Assembly: GCA_001816645.1 (NCBI GenBank)
Contig: MHCO01000007.1
Coordinates: 42,442-59,326 of the forward strand
Length of the DNA: 16,885 nt
Source of the DNA: Candidatus Woykebacteria bacterium GWB1_45_5
Lineage (GTDB): Bacteria; Patescibacteriota; Microgenomatia; Woykebacterales; RBG-16-39-9b
Direction of reading: 5' to 3'
In this document: piece by piece, positions 2,222 to 8,370 of the stretch
Layout: each line of letters begins with the position of its first letter
Numbering within the stretch: position 1 is the stretch's first letter
Position numbers and translations under genes: made by a program
Notes under the pieces: model-generated
The model's input: the letters and a program-made list of their open reading frames with translations, nothing else
Told to the model about the DNA's origin: nothing
Database searches by the model: none

Positions 2222-5200
2222 ATGAAGGACCGTGATCAACTTGCCCAAAAATTAAAAAATTTATTTTCCCCTAAAATCTCATCGCTGTTGGTAGGGTTAA
2301 TCCCAATAATAGCTCTCGCCGGAATTTATTTAACCCTAAACAACTTCCACCCGTTTGAAAAAAACAGTCCTCAAAAGGCCAAAAATCAAACGCCACAGGA
2401 ACGAAATAAAGACAGAGTCTTAGCCGAACAATCAACCGGAATTTCTATTTCCGGCAGTAAAGGCGGAGGCGAGGGAGGATTAGTTGCTTTAGCCTCGACC
2501 GAAGAGCCAGCTGTTTATGTAGGTGCTGGAAAAGATGTTTCTGGTTCAGCTGAGATATCTATCTATCAAGCTAGTGAAGACACTTTGCTTAACTATTTGT
2601 TACACGACAAAAACGGGAAGCAATTAAACCCAAATCCGGATATTAGTAAATTTACCTATGTCACAAAAGTCAACCAGCAAATAACCGGCGGTTATGGCAA
2701 AGAAGTAAAAGTGATTCTACCTCTTGCCGAAACCGGCATTTGGTTTCTGAGAGCTACTCTTGGATCATCAAGTAGCGATCTTTTTGTCATCCGGTCTAAC
2801 ATTGGAACAACTGTGAAGGAAGGCGACAATGAGTACATCTTTTGGGGGCAAAACTTCAAAACTCGTCGCAGTGTTTCCGAGGGAGCTATCACAATCTACG
2901 ATTTAAAGGACTCCCGCAAAGTAATTACCTCAACTTCATTCAACACTCAAGGTATAGCGAAAACCAAACTAACCGCCGAAGCCGACATCGCTGTAATAAA
3001 ACAAGGAGATGATAAATCCATCATACCAATAAATTTAAAGTATCTCAGTCCAGAGGGGGAGTCTTACTTTTACGAATATCGCACCTTCCAGCCCAAAAGC
3101 CGCCAAAGCGGGTATTTTATCTTTACTGATCGGCCTCTTTATCGACCTGGGGACAAAGTTTATTTTAAATCCGTCCTACGCGACGACGATGACGTACGCT
3201 ACACCGTACCAAAAGGCACTGCTTCAGTTAAGATTTACGAAGGTTACAATTGGGGATCATCTAATACCAGCAACGAAGGTCTCGTTTTCGAAAAAAACTA
3301 TCCTATCTCCAAAGACGGTACAATTAATGGCGAGTATACACTGCCGGCAAATTCCAAAACAGGGACCTACACTCTAGCTGTTTCTATCCCTGGTAGCACT
3401 GGGAGTTCGTTGTGGTTTGATGTCCAATTTTTCCGTAAACCCGAGTACTCCATTGATGTCACGACGCAAAAAACAGAATTGGTCGCTGGCGATAACTCTT
3501 CTTTCACAATATCAGGAAACTATTTTTCTGGCCAGCCGATCTCCAACCAAAAGGTCAAGTACACTATTTATTCGGCTGATTTTTACGAATATTCGTACCT
3601 CACTGACCGATCTTATGCTTTAAATGATAATTATCGCTACGGTTATTGGGGTGGTGACAAAGTGAAGGAAGGCGAAGTCACTTTAGACCAAAAAGGTAGG
3701 GCTGACACTGCTCTCGACACAAAAGCCCTGCTGGCAGCTGCTAAGGGTAAAAGCCAGGTGCTTTCTATCGAGGCCGAATTTGACGATGGCTCTGGCAATC
3801 CTTCTTTTAGCCGTAAGAATATTCTCGTTTATGCTGGCGAATTTGGTATTTATCGCAAGGATTATAGTTACGGCACGAAAGTTAATACTCCCCTTTCCTT
3901 ACCGGTCGTTTTAGTCTCTCGTCACAACACAAATGTTTCCGGCGTTAATTTAACAGCCAAAATCCACCGCGAAAACTGGATCTCTTATCAAGAACCGGAT
4001 AAAAAATATCCTTCCTACAAAAAAGAAGAGGAAGATTTGCCACCAGTTAAAACAAAAACCGATGCCCAAGGTAACGCCACCCTAAACTTCACTCCGACGA
4101 AAGCTGGCTCTTATAAAATAACTGCCGAAGCAAGCGACCAACGCGGCAATTTAGTTTCAAAAGAGTTTTACTCTTACGTCTGCTCAGAGGATCAGTTCTG
4201 CTACAGCGGCGAGCAAGATAACGGTATTATCATCCAAACTGATAAACAAAAATACCTACCAACCGATACAGTTCACTTTACTATCTATTCAGAAACAGCC
4301 GACCGAGATGTCTTTTTATCCCTTGAGCGTGCTAGAGTCAACAGATTCCAAATAGTCCACCTGACTGGTAAAAGCGGAACCGTCGATGTACCTTTGGTAA
4401 GTACTGACATGCCTAATATGTTTGCTAAAGTTTCAAGTTTTTCAAACAATACCCACGATACCGGCTCAGTAACTATTGTTGTTTCCCCTGAAAGTAAAAG
4501 ATTAACAGTTAAAATCACACCGGATCGAAACAAGCTAGGACCAAGCGACAACGTAACCATAAATCTAGAAACCAAAGACTCCACCGGCAAGCCTGTTTCG
4601 GCTGATCTAGCAGTTTGGGTTGTTGATAAAGCTATCTTTGAACTAGTCGATGAAGGACTGGGAGATATTTTCACTACCTTTTGGCAAGAACGTTATAACG
4701 ACACACAAGAAGCCCACGCCTTAGAAGGAATCCCAATTATTTCTGCGGAGAGAGGCGCTGGCTGCTTTGCTGCCGGAACACCGGTTTTATTAACTGACAA
4801 AACAACCAAACCAATCGAAAAAATCAAAGTTGGCGATACTGTTTTAACGAGAGAAAGCGAAAAAAGCCCTGAACTTGTTAAGGCCAAGGTTGTCGGCACT
4901 CATCAAGCAGTAGTTTCTGGTTATCTTATTATTAACAGCAACCTCCGAGTCACTCCCAACCACCGACTTTGGGTAAACGATTCCTGGAAACTAGCCGGAT
5001 CAATCCAAATTGGCGATAAGTTAACCGACCTCAACGGAAAATCAATCACCATCTCTTCACTAGAATGGGTACGCGGAAAGTTCACTGTCTATAACCTACA
5101 AATTGAAAGGTATAAAACCTATTTTGCTGCTGGCATTTGGGCTCACAACGACAAGGGTGGGGCGAGAGAAATCTTCAAAGACACCGCTTATTGGAACCCT

Positions 5201-7450
5201 TCAGTCCACACAGATAAGTCGGGCAAGGCGAGTATTAGCTTCAAGCTACCGGACAATCTGACCACCTGGGTTTTGTCAGCTGTTGGTTCAACTACTGACA
5301 CCAAGGTTGGTCAAACCACAAGTGAAATCGTGGTTACCAAGGATGTCATCGTCCGACCGATTTTACCAAACATCTTGCGCGAAGGTGACAAGGTAATCCT
5401 CGCGGCCTTGGTGCATAATTTTACCGACAAAGATCACGTCTTTGACACTGACCTAAAGTTTGATTCTGGCGATGTTAAACCCACCGCCACTACTTCGGCT
5501 ATACCGATTAAATCCAAGGAGACGCAGCAAGTCTCTTGGAATGTCTCCCCAAAGAAGGAAAATGAAGCGGCTAAACTTACTTATTCCGCTACCGCCAAAG
5601 AAGATAAAAAGGCTGCTGATACCGTCGTTCAGAAAATTCCAGTCCGGCCATTTGGCTTCCTAGAGCAAAGAGCCGAAACTGGCGATGGGCCAAAAACATT
5701 CAACGTCAAGTTGTCCCCAGATTCTTCCAAGCAAAAATCGGGTGTCACAATTTCTCTTTCCCCAACTCTTGTTGGCGCCTTACCAGCGGCGATGAAGCAT
5801 TTAATCTACTACCCTTACGGTTGTGTCGAGCAAACCACTGGCTCACTTGTCCCTGCTGTGATTGCTAAAACCAATCCCGATCTGTTTGCCCAAAGCCTAG
5901 CCGATCATAATCTTGACCTTATTATTCAAAAAGGACTAACTAGGTTAGCAAACCTCCGGCACTCGGACGGCGGTTGGGCCTGGTGGGGTTCTGGTAAATC
6001 AGACACTTTTATTACTGCTTATGTTGTCGAGTACCTGCTAGCAGCAAGACAAGCTGGTTTTTCTGTTGATCAAGAACTACTTTCCCAAGCTCAAAGTTTC
6101 CTAGAGGCCGAGAATAAAGAAGACACACGAGAAGACGTAGTAGCCAAAACCTATGCTCTCACGTTGCTGAATTCTTCCAAACGCAAGACCAAACTTTCTG
6201 ATCTAGACAAACTTAGCCCAGACTTGCTCTCTCTAGCGGTGATGGCAAACGTCCTAAATGGTGATAAAAATCCGCAGAGTAATGGCTTAGCAAAACTCGC
6301 TGCGGCGGCTAAAACCCAAGGTGACGCTGCTTTCTGGGAGGCTGGTAGTGAAAAGAAATTTGGTTCAAAAGATACCTCAACCGCTTTTGCTATCCGGGCA
6401 ATTCTTACCGCCGGCGGCGACCGAAATCTAGCCGTAAAAGGAGCAAAGTACCTCAACCGCAACCGCCGATACCAGTACTGGACAAGCACTTTCGCTACTG
6501 CCCAGGTGGTTCGGGCTCTTGTTGATTTATCCAAAACCGGCAGCGAACAGACGCCAAACTACACCTACACTGTTTCGCTCGATAAAAAGGAGATTGCCAA
6601 GGGAACTGTCAACAGTCCAAAACAAATAATTAAAGATATTGCCATACCCATCGACAAAATAAAGCCCGCTGGTTCTAATCTCGCCATCTCTAAAAGCGGC
6701 GCCGGCCAAATATATTCAACATTGGTAATCAATGAATTCCGAACTGACCGAAATGCCAAAGCAGTTAACCATGGTCTGGAAGTGAAAAGAGAATATATCA
6801 GTGATCAAGGCTCTGATTATTCCCTGGCTGTTGGCGACACAGTTACCGTCAAGATCACCGTTAAAGGCTTGAAAACCGAGGAAAATTATGGAATTATCAC
6901 CGATGAACTACCCGCCGGCATGATCCCGGTAAATAAAGTATTTAAAAACGAGCAGTATGGAAAGGACCCTTATTACAGCTATTACCATTCCTACGATGTC
7001 ACTGACCAGGAAACCACCGAAAATGGCGTAGTTCTCTCCCTTTATCAAATAGCCGTTGGTGAGCACACTTACACCTACAAGGCTCGAGTGATCAGCGCTG
7101 GTACCTTTAGCACACCGCCGGCAACTGCCTCACTAATGTATGCCCCGGAAATCTGGGGCCGCTCAGGAGCCCAAACCGTCCAAGTAACAACCGAATCGAA
7201 GATTCTTCCGCAAAAAGCCATCCAGAAAGCGCTCGAAAAATATGCCAGAGCGAAAACTGTGATCGCTGGTGCGATAATCCTAATTGTTCTTTTGGGTGCT
7301 GGCACCATCTTTATTCTGAAAAGAAAAGGTGTCACAATAAAGCAACTTAAGGAGGGGATTTTTAGGATTTTAGAGGGTCTGAAGACCAAGATCCCTTGGC
7401 GAAATAAACAAGGGCCAAGTCAGCCTGGTCCACCAAACAACAGCCTATGA
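2222..7450 (+). CDS. Membrane-anchored alpha-2-macroglobulin with Hint domain in the bait region
   Basis: A 1742-residue bacterial alpha-2-macroglobulin, a large extracytoplasmic protease trap. Order: N-terminal hydrophobic helix (about 19-38, no lipobox Cys); Gly-rich linker; macroglobulin (MG) beta domains, with the family hallmark TDRPLYRPGDKVYFKS at about 302-317; further MG domains to about 845, including AVWVVDKAIFELVDEG; a complete Hint domain (C848 to N976); the continuation of the interrupted MG domain, FKDTAYWNPSV...LPDNLTTW; the alpha-helical thioester domain with GCVEQ (Cys1201 to Gln1204 as thioester partners); C-terminal MG domains; a membrane helix (about 1680-1699) and a basic cytoplasmic tail. 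In the family, bait cleavage by a protease collapses the trap and exposes the thioester, which bonds the attacker. The start has AGGA at a 7-nt spacing. The gene overlaps the Memo gene by ATGA. The Hint insertion is unusual; splicing, self-cleavage or a passive bait are the options. Confidence 0.95.
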   Translation: MKDRDQLAQKLKNLFSPKISSLLVGLIPIIALAGIYLTLNNFHPFEKNSPQKAKNQTPQERNKDRVLAEQSTGISISGSKGGGEGGLVALASTEEPAVYVGAGKDVSGSAEISIYQASEDTLLNYLLHDKNGKQLNPNPDISKFTYVTKVNQQITGGYGKEVKVILPLAETGIWFLRATLGSSSSDLFVIRSNIGTTVKEGDNEYIFWGQNFKTRRSVSEGAITIYDLKDSRKVITSTSFNTQGIAKTKLTAEADIAVIKQGDDKSIIPINLKYLSPEGESYFYEYRTFQPKSRQSGYFIFTDRPLYRPGDKVYFKSVLRDDDDVRYTVPKGTASVKIYEGYNWGSSNTSNEGLVFEKNYPISKDGTINGEYTLPANSKTGTYTLAVSIPGSTGSSLWFDVQFFRKPEYSIDVTTQKTELVAGDNSSFTISGNYFSGQPISNQKVKYTIYSADFYEYSYLTDRSYALNDNYRYGYWGGDKVKEGEVTLDQKGRADTALDTKALLAAAKGKSQVLSIEAEFDDGSGNPSFSRKNILVYAGEFGIYRKDYSYGTKVNTPLSLPVVLVSRHNTNVSGVNLTAKIHRENWISYQEPDKKYPSYKKEEEDLPPVKTKTDAQGNATLNFTPTKAGSYKITAEASDQRGNLVSKEFYSYVCSEDQFCYSGEQDNGIIIQTDKQKYLPTDTVHFTIYSETADRDVFLSLERARVNRFQIVHLTGKSGTVDVPLVSTDMPNMFAKVSSFSNNTHDTGSVTIVVSPESKRLTVKITPDRNKLGPSDNVTINLETKDSTGKPVSADLAVWVVDKAIFELVDEGLGDIFTTFWQERYNDTQEAHALEGIPIISAERGAGCFAAGTPVLLTDKTTKPIEKIKVGDTVLTRESEKSPELVKAKVVGTHQAVVSGYLIINSNLRVTPNHRLWVNDSWKLAGSIQIGDKLTDLNGKSITISSLEWVRGKFTVYNLQIERYKTYFAAGIWAHNDKGGAREIFKDTAYWNPSVHTDKSGKASISFKLPDNLTTWVLSAVGSTTDTKVGQTTSEIVVTKDVIVRPILPNILREGDKVILAALVHNFTDKDHVFDTDLKFDSGDVKPTATTSAIPIKSKETQQVSWNVSPKKENEAAKLTYSATAKEDKKAADTVVQKIPVRPFGFLEQRAETGDGPKTFNVKLSPDSSKQKSGVTISLSPTLVGALPAAMKHLIYYPYGCVEQTTGSLVPAVIAKTNPDLFAQSLADHNLDLIIQKGLTRLANLRHSDGGWAWWGSGKSDTFITAYVVEYLLAARQAGFSVDQELLSQAQSFLEAENKEDTREDVVAKTYALTLLNSSKRKTKLSDLDKLSPDLLSLAVMANVLNGDKNPQSNGLAKLAAAAKTQGDAAFWEAGSEKKFGSKDTSTAFAIRAILTAGGDRNLAVKGAKYLNRNRRYQYWTSTFATAQVVRALVDLSKTGSEQTPNYTYTVSLDKKEIAKGTVNSPKQIIKDIAIPIDKIKPAGSNLAISKSGAGQIYSTLVINEFRTDRNAKAVNHGLEVKREYISDQGSDYSLAVGDTVTVKITVKGLKTEENYGIITDELPAGMIPVNKVFKNEQYGKDPYYSYYHSYDVTDQETTENGVVLSLYQIAVGEHTYTYKARVISAGTFSTPPATASLMYAPEIWGRSGAQTVQVTTESKILPQKAIQKALEKYARAKTVIAGAIILIVLLGAGTIFILKRKGVTIKQLKEGIFRILEGLKTKIPWRNKQGPSQPGPPNNSL
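4763..5149 (+). other. Hint (intein-like) domain coding segment inside the macroglobulin gene
   Basis: In-frame segment for residues 848-976 (129 residues). It starts with C848 in CFAAGTPVLL (Hint block A), has KIKVGDTVL, the block B TxxH (T911, H914 in VTPNHRLWV), LAGSIQIGDKL, and ends with block F/G TVYNLQIERYKTYFAAG then AHN (H975, N976). All residues needed for N-terminal acyl shift and Asn cyclization are visible. There is no room for a homing endonuclease, so it is a mini Hint, most like bacterial intein-like or pretoxin-Hint domains. The +1 residue is D977, not Cys/Ser/Thr. Removal would join ERGAG to DKGGAREIF, a Gly-rich loop like that of macroglobulins without an insert. Confidence 0.9.
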
Positions 7451-8370
7451 AGAAAAAACCGTTAATTTTAATACTGATAATAGCCTTCGCCCTCCCTCTT
7501 TTAGTCTGGGAATTGTTTATAACCAACCTTGCTAAAACCACTACGCAGTCACTGCCAGATAAACCGCTTGGTACGGTCAAGAAAGCTATGGAACGACCCT
7601 CTCACCCACTAGTTTTTTGGGACGAAAATGGTTTTTATAAAGGAGTCTCCCAGGCAGAAAAAGAAACCAAGAAACCAAATTACAAAATCGCCGGCGGCAT
7701 AATTCCCCACCACCTTCTTCCTAGTTTCATGATTGCCGATTTCTTTAATCGTTTAAGCGCCCAGGAGCCAAACACCATTATTCTCCTTGGTCCAAACCAT
7801 GATGAATTGGGTGATTTTGAGGTTCTAACTAGTCTCTATGGCTGGCAAACGCCTTTTGGAACAGTGGAACCCAATGATGCAATAATTAACAGCTTAATCA
7901 ACAATAATCTCGCCAAGGTAGATGAGGATGTTTTAGCCAAGGAAACTTCGGTGTCAGCAATTGTACCTTTTATCAAGTTTTATCTACCAAAAGCAAAGGT
8001 AGTTCCTCTGATCCTTAGCGCCAGAATGACGCAAGATGAAACAAGGACCTTGGCCAACGACCTAAAAAACCGCTTGAGTAATAAAACCGTGATTGTCGCC
8101 GCAGTAGATTTTTCCCATTATTTAACAAGTCCGCTAGCAAAGGAGAAAGACGAACTAACCTGGCAGGTGATGAAAAACTTCGATTACCGCCAACTTTTTA
8201 CCCTTAACAATGATTACCTAGATAACCCACCCTCGATCGCCACTCTTTTGATGGCGATGCAAAAGCGTGGAACAACCAACTTTGATCTCCTTTATCACAC
8301 CAATTCTGGTGAGTTACTGAAAGACAGCTCTATCTCCACCACCAGCTACTTCTCCATCGATTTTCACTAA
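7447..8370 (+). CDS. Memo-family (AmmeMemoRadiSam B-like) protein with N-terminal membrane anchor
   Basis: 307 residues. An N-terminal helix (KKKPLILILIIAFALPLLVW) anchors or exports the protein; the rest is a Memo/MEMO1-like alpha/beta domain: GGIIPHHLLP (H88, where PHAG is usual), ILLGPNH (H118), TPFGTVE, VVPLIL, and VDFSHYL (H224), ending in a SYFSIDF strand. These three His residues correspond to the metal-binding His set of Memo proteins; the family's usual C-terminal active-site Cys region is replaced by PPSIATLL, with no Cys. Memo proteins are metal-dependent, redox-linked or dioxygenase-related; the bacterial role is unsettled. ATG 7447 overlaps the macroglobulin stop (ATGA), so translation is probably coupled and both proteins face the outside of the membrane. 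The other AmmeMemoRadiSam members (AMMECR1 and its radical SAM) are not seen here. Confidence 0.85.
   Translation: MKKKPLILILIIAFALPLLVWELFITNLAKTTTQSLPDKPLGTVKKAMERPSHPLVFWDENGFYKGVSQAEKETKKPNYKIAGGIIPHHLLPSFMIADFFNRLSAQEPNTIILLGPNHDELGDFEVLTSLYGWQTPFGTVEPNDAIINSLINNNLAKVDEDVLAKETSVSAIVPFIKFYLPKAKVVPLILSARMTQDETRTLANDLKNRLSNKTVIVAAVDFSHYLTSPLAKEKDELTWQVMKNFDYRQLFTLNNDYLDNPPSIATLLMAMQKRGTTNFDLLYHTNSGELLKDSSISTTSYFSIDFH

Follow-up and report, generated by a model that had tools for sequence, protein, structure and literature searches.

RESULTS

The A2M gene and its Hint domain

In this work, we have analysed a stretch of 16,885 nucleotides (the window) from Candidatus Woykebacteria bacterium GWB1_45_5, in which an alpha-2-macroglobulin (A2M) gene encodes a Hint domain placed in the bait loop of the protein. 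Its features, all on the forward strand, are the following:

2222..7450, +, A2M ORF, 1742 aa, thioester-type bacterial A2M
2276..2332, +, N-terminal membrane helix, residues ~19-37 (hydropathy)
3113..3412, +, MG2 domain, residues 298-397 (Pfam PF01835)
4232..4645, +, A2M bait-region domain A2M_BRD, residues 671-808 (Pfam PF07703, 5.5e-13)
4646..4762, +, N-side of the bait loop, residues 809-847, ending in ...AERGAG
4763..5149, +, Hint, A-type BIL-like domain, residues 848-976, 129 aa (Pfam, sequence, AF2 and Foldseek)
4763..4765, +, C848, N-junction nucleophile
4952..4963, +, block B TxxH (T911, H914)
5093..5095, +, N958 in 'VYN' of block F, invariant, its F:4 role assigned by motif alone
5144..5149, +, H975-N976, C-junction
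5150..5155, +, D977 (+1; Q, D or E in relatives) and K978 (+2)
5165..5167, +, R982, aligned with R956 of YfhM
5183..5434, +, A2M domain, residues 988-1071 (Pfam PF00207, 1.5e-20)
5819..5833, +, thioester motif GCVEQ, residues 1200-1204, within the TED (sequence motif)
6773..7150, +, bMG10 domain, residues 1518-1643 (Pfam PF17973)
7259..7315, +, C-terminal membrane helix, residues ~1680-1698 (hydropathy)
7447..8370, +, Memo-like gene (PF01875) downstream, overlapping the A2M stop codon; context, outside the Hint

The BRD, A2M, TED and MG10 domains follow each other in the ORF (Pfam) as they do in bacterial A2Ms, and among solved structures its best matches are E. coli YfhM (ECAM) and the Salmonella A2M. 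The protein agrees with these two in the order of its domains and in its bait site, thioester and MG10. The CxEQ motif is present, and its Cys, Glu and Gln are found in 120 of 121 aligned rows, with a gap in the other. Whereas YfhM is a lipoprotein by its PDB name, the window A2M has a membrane helix at each end; hydropathy finds both helices in 106 of the 111 full-length homologs of the window's clade, and the C-terminal one in 111/111 of these versus 0/79 in a deep clade of A2Ms. Since there is a helix at each end, both halves of a cut window-clade A2M would stay on the cell. Of 80 related loci, 11 have a Memo-like homolog (L061-L064, L066-L070, L072 and L096), one of them (L096) being Hint-free, and the A2M-Memo association looks independent of the Hint.

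The preliminary description had named C848, T911-x-x-H914 and H975-N976 as the hallmarks of a complete Hint, and these residues are as it gave them. It had set the span at 4700-5215, which does contain the Hint, although its edges are 4763 and 5149 and the remainder belongs to two linkers. Pfam places PT-HINT (PF07591) on residues 858-977 (1.7e-9; 38.5 bits, cut-off 27.7), and the Hint matches the sequence of the C. thermocellum BIL (2lwy) at 6e-7. In an AF2 model of residues 650-1080 (35-row alignment, mean pLDDT 81.9), proposed earlier as a check on the bait loop, the Hint is folded between two low-confidence linkers (model positions 187-196 and 330-336, pLDDT below 50). Foldseek aligned the Hint part with 2lwy (TM 0.85 over the target, 1.8 Å) and with the Tetrahymena BUBL1 BIL2 (0.76-0.79), while the modelled segment gave long matches of low TM to A2M and complement chains.

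The profile score above the cut-off and the Foldseek match to BILs place the domain in the Hint superfamily, among the PT-HINTs, and BILs are its best match among solved Hints by both fold and sequence. It has the Cys1, TxxH and C-terminal His-Asn of A-type BILs and, like them, a +1 residue other than Cys, Ser or Thr; D977 stands where a class 1 intein has one of these three, which are absent in 245 of 248 proteins. The C. thermocellum BIL resembles it in size, in these same residues and in having neither an endonuclease nor a +1 nucleophile. Many inteins, not all, carry a homing endonuclease. In the window Hint, Pfam gave no endonuclease match, Hom_end_hint covering only positions 1-31 of 228. 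Judged from its sequence, then, the window Hint is complete, endonuclease-free and closest to A-type BIL domains. It differs from the known ones in being fixed in an A2M bait loop, with flanks that are mostly AExGG[Hint](D/E/Q)KG, and in that its activity is predicted. The PT-HINT domains of polymorphic toxins precede a C-terminal toxin domain; the window A2M shares PF07591 with them, but Pfam shows no toxin domain in it, and a toxin reading was dropped.

The insertion site

An alignment with K-12 YfhM (locus L141; the misaligned rows L009, L084 and L102 were ignored) places the Hint in the Gly-rich bait loop at G949-D950 of YfhM, between A2M_BRD and the A2M domain, as had been proposed. Residues R923, L942, F947, R956, N963, C1187, Q1190 and M1634 of YfhM fit the numbering used in PMC4498604. 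According to that paper, in the elastase-cleaved E. coli A2M residues 923-942 are missing and 947-963 are ordered on the CTMG domain, where R956 contacts M1634 after bait cleavage, and it is proposed that the segment, once free, pushes the TED aside and exposes the thioester (PMC4498604). With that account and the YfhM alignment, the Hint sits where the activating segment starts, a few residues ahead of the arginine. The E. coli and Salmonella baits are short, disordered and cut by foreign proteases (PMC4498604), whereas that of the window A2M is filled by the Hint.

Empty sites could be recognised in relatives. The Hint-free A2M L096 reads ...HSLESLGLYGAERGGGGGGDDLRDIFKDTAYWNP where the window A2M reads ...AHALEGIPIISAERGAG[Hint]DKGGAREIFKDTAYWNP, and the Hint-free L020 reads SIDRINSNTNLGAKGGSGGGGGGDAGFETTRKEFPETAYW where the Hint-bearing L011 reads SIDRINANMNLGSKGGSGAA[Hint]DKGAEDSSRKYFPDTAYW. 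Deleting the Hint does therefore leave an ordinary Gly-rich loop. Measured between simple anchors, the loop minus the Hint has a median length of 43 (27 of 36 rows measurable) versus 42 in Hint-free A2Ms (71 of 78 rows). The linker ahead of the Hint (residues 809-847) has a mean entropy of 1.32, compared with 1.34 each for the BRD and the Hint and 0.91 for the A2M domain; conservation equal to that of the BRD and Hint seems, from these alignments, unusual for a bait.

Distribution in Patescibacteria

Among 379 sampled genomes of the phylum, PF00207 matched 51 places in 48 genomes, and an alignment of the Hint (A1) matched 95 places in 66. All 95 were compared with the A2M places, the 25 best first and then the other 70. 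The top 20 each lie 28-58 bp ahead of an A2M match, so that 20 of the 51 A2M places carry the Hint. The 21st, in G057, stands where a contig stops. On another contig of that genome, the A2M L015 begins with a Hint tail; the two are probably one gene. None of the other 74 lies beside an A2M match, two being on a contig with one but more than 40 kb apart. In the window's own assembly, the window Hint was the sole match in both Hint searches. In the relatives search, 8 of 59 genomes (its own included) had a strong Hint match, inside an A2M in six and elsewhere in two (G199, G379).

The same Hint was found at the same site on 17 contigs of named records (L070 being cut by a contig end), which were retrieved by motifs of the window's clade and thus say nothing on frequency. 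Their carriers are named as Daviesbacteria, Blackburnbacteria, Woesebacteria, Amesbacteria, Gottesmanbacteria, Shapirobacteria and Moraniibacteriota, and source names add Peregrinibacteria, Gracilibacteria, Magasanikbacteria and Doudnabacteria; three matches named for other phyla (P0061, P0115, P0254) are possibly binning errors. The Hint in the A2M bait loop is a widespread architecture in the phylum. Recurrence in 20/51 A2M places and on 17 contigs rules out a single oddity, a chimera, chance or an assembly artefact. The search for further A2Ms with a Hint at this site, suggested by the preliminary description, thus succeeded, and its account of one protein, right for the window, has to be widened to an architecture that has been acquired or lost on several occasions and that is found also in A2Ms without the thioester motif.

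Gain and loss of the Hint

The A2M tree was built from 114 rows of 130 segments with the Hint removed, leaving out L015, L070, L051 and duplicate rows. It needs 7 changes of Hint state (shuffled mean 31), at least 4 of them forced by well-supported branches. A single clade of all 36 carriers was 319 log units worse (AU p = 4e-9, on a quick tree with long branches). Because the carriers form no single clade, the Hint has been gained and/or lost repeatedly at one site. The tree of the Hints themselves is weakly resolved. It places the divergent f33 Hints (L014, L018) with non-A2M Hints at 96/80, but we do not claim a separate origin for them, as a single clade of all A2M Hints stays acceptable in the AU test (p 0.663).

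The Hint of L049 is flanked by a perfect 15/15-bp direct repeat (Ala-Glu-Lys-Gly-Gly); L050, L047 and L004 show similar repeats that are imperfect or shorter. Such a repeat could allow precise gain or loss. Insertion through target duplication is not general: the mean flank match in the 36 hosts is 6.6 versus 6.0 in mixed pairs, and 15/15 is reached only in L049.

Conservation of the active site

G847, C848, F849, T911, H914, H975, N976, K978 and R982 are each found in 120/120 of the homologs listed among 1633 hits (one of them the window's own protein), and in the same alignment a few further residues besides N958 are invariant too. The +1 residue of these 120 listed matches is Q in 79, D in 21 and E in 20. 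Further protein searches, one of which listed 120 of its 127 hits, added at least 216 proteins. Of these, 128 have a Hint adjoining an A2M domain, 68 are A2Ms without a Hint, and 20 have a Hint and no adjacent A2M match. Cys1, TxxH and His-Asn are kept in 126 of the 128, the exceptions being P0214, with Ser in place of Thr, and P0221, whose N-terminus is cut off. Here the +1 residue is D in 74, E in 25, Q in 14, G in 5, A in 4, N in 3, S in 2 and T in 1, and the +2 residue is K in 122. The full set of Cys1, TxxH and terminal His-Asn is thus present in 246 of the 248 database Hint-bearing A2Ms examined, in only 3 of which +1 is Cys, Ser or Thr, and in 36/36 of the distinct hosts that the genome and contig searches gave.

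Thioester status and Hints outside A2Ms

A CxEQ motif was searched for within 420 residues, an off-site match in L043 being discarded. Among the 35 Hint-bearing A2Ms with enough downstream sequence, 17 have it at the expected place and 18 lack it, including all 13 deep-clade carriers, L014, L018, and also two that fall with the window's clade, L007 and L077. L074 has Ser in place of the thioester Cys, and its near kin L075 has Cys. A tie between the Hint and the TED thioester is therefore unsupported: with 18/35 carriers lacking CxEQ, the Hint cannot be understood simply as this thioester's switch, nor is thioester release its general purpose.

Hints of this kind are not bound to A2Ms, since a few lie in other proteins. 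In the gracilibacterial protein P0219 (970 aa), SLH repeats are followed by YAEKGG[Hint]DKG and a beta-propeller. As the flanks are the same as in A2Ms, the flank motif would seem to be part of the Hint, and the Hint to be used for cutting (or transfer). L144, from a genome of the window genome's family (G379), has a strong Hint match (167 bits) in a frame of 654 aa that contains no A2M domain, and its flanks differ (VLST[Hint]VKLD). P0220 and P0223 have two PT-HINT stretches apiece.

DISCUSSION

Our results place a BIL-like Hint in the bait loop of A2Ms from many uncultured Patescibacteria. What could it do there? A mere spacer, or mere food for proteases, would hardly be expected to hold an active site so strictly, and we infer selection for excision; the earlier idea of a decoy offered as bait gains nothing from the data, as a merely degradable domain would need no intact active site. 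Were a single cut enough, drift would be expected at the other junction, yet the residues of both are invariant, which points to excision with both cuts. Purifying selection on the active site argues for real self-processing. As the chemistries of both junctions are conserved, selection likely favours self-excision, which would mostly leave two separate chains and perhaps some religated product; classical splicing is unlikely, because +1 is Cys, Ser or Thr in only 3/248. According to PMC4031507, A-type BILs, which end in His-Asn and have no +1 nucleophile, are able to splice, and cleavage products dominate.

We propose, at about an even chance of being right, that an active A-type BIL-like Hint excises itself, mainly cutting the bait into two chains, and thereby trips the trap. 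The A2M would be held at the surface by a helix at either end, and the Hint would act after export and folding. C848 would take the acyl group of Gly847 as a thioester and Asn976 would cyclise; water or another nucleophile would resolve the thioester, so that both junctions are cut and the Hint is released, religation by the freed +1 amine being at most partial. The resulting two-chain A2M would have a new N-terminus, D977-K-G-G-A-R982, five residues before R982. The freed segment would be the one that in the cleaved E. coli A2M binds the C-terminal MG domain, and the trap's trigger could thus be pulled from inside the protein. Cleavage is favoured by the non-nucleophilic +1 residue, as in the A-type BILs that mostly cleave (PMC4031507), by the G949-D950 site with R982 aligned to the R956 that contacts CTMG after bait cleavage (PMC4498604), and by P0219, where the Hint links a wall anchor to an ectodomain and cutting makes more sense than splicing. 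On the other side, a bait that cut itself without a gate would spend a classical trap for nothing, and no such gate was identified; A-type BILs also ligate, and splicing too explains loop lengths equal to those of Hint-free A2Ms. Tripping through the thioester does not suit the 18/35 carriers without CxEQ, the deep clade without a C-terminal anchor (0/79) does not fit the anchored two-chain picture, and the few such Hints in other proteins (P0219, L144) speak against an A2M-specific role.

We consider it rather unlikely, though a serious alternative, that the Hint delays arming: it would shut the bait during synthesis and export and then splice out by way of the +1 amine, leaving a Gly-rich bait that awaits a protease. 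The joined flanks do resemble Hint-free loops in length and make-up, C1 and N976 are both invariant, and A-type BILs ligate without a +1 side chain, but they mainly cleave (PMC4031507). Moreover, Cys, Ser or Thr is missing at +1 in 245/248, the linker ahead of the Hint (entropy 1.32) matches the BRD and the Hint in conservation, unlike a bait open to many proteases, and in P0219 splicing would merely rejoin a linker.

Two further readings are both improbable. By one, the Gly847 thioester would be passed to a neighbour's amine or to Lys978, making the bait a warhead or surface cross-link, and could stand in for the missing TED thioester. The active site is indeed kept in 36/36 hosts while 18/35 carriers lack CxEQ, L074 has lost the thioester Cys that its near kin L075 keeps, Gly at -1 is found in 120/120 of the matches listed, and Lys at +2 in these same 120/120 and in 122/128. 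Foldseek also matches the Hint to a BIL from the Tetrahymena BUBL1 locus, which reportedly passes its ubiquitin-like flank to amines. However, no acceptor is known, 17/35 carriers have both the Hint and CxEQ, +2 is Glu in 4/36 hosts, and transfer would be an unusual outcome for a BIL. By the other reading, the Hint would be kept in the mature A2M and react on cue (reduction, pH or an attacker's clip), turning the bait into a sensor. This would avoid the spending of the trap by a spontaneous cut, and the low-confidence linkers on either side of the modelled Hint would suit its exposure, but a non-systematic look turned up neither a regulatory residue that is conserved nor a partner for a disulphide. 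A selfish mini-intein merely surviving in a tolerant Gly loop is very improbable: repeated gain and loss at one site and the 15/15-bp repeat of L049 would fit it, but it has no endonuclease (Pfam), should splice poorly because the +1 nucleophile is absent, and occupies 20/51 A2M places in the phylum sample with a fully constrained active site.

Complement C3, C4 and C5 have an anaphylatoxin domain in this part of the MG fold, and a separate convertase excises it. They resemble the window A2M in that a folded domain occupies the bait position, and the C5 chain 3prx_A aligns from 768 on with the window A2M from 984 on, just after the Hint. The anaphylatoxin relies on that separate convertase, whereas the Hint brings its own chemistry. 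Going beyond self-excision as proposed above, we can imagine a self-triggering, partly self-arming A2M of defence or attachment, with the Hint as a built-in convertase; where the TED thioester is lost, the Gly-Cys thioester would be the warhead, coupling the surface A2M of epibiotic Patescibacteria to whatever touches the bait. We regard this wider scheme as speculative and doubtful.

The preliminary description knew of no described example, and we found none of a Hint in an A2M in the open-access library searched. The A2Ms of Vampirococcus and other Patescibacteria have been discussed as a defence against host proteases, with no mention of a Hint in the passages concerned (PMC8080830, PMC9793634); in PMC13059738, macroglobulin appears solely within a reference. 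The databases already hold the fact, since the automatic JGI name of P0154 lists both domains.

On the current view, a trap of the A2M/complement superfamily depends on a foreign protease for the bait cut. If the Hint processes itself, such traps could mature or fire with no protease involved, and its repeated presence at the bait site would be a bacterial parallel to the domain found there in complement C3 and C5. It would also give BIL domains a concrete, testable role and offer a handle on the surface biology of Patescibacteria.
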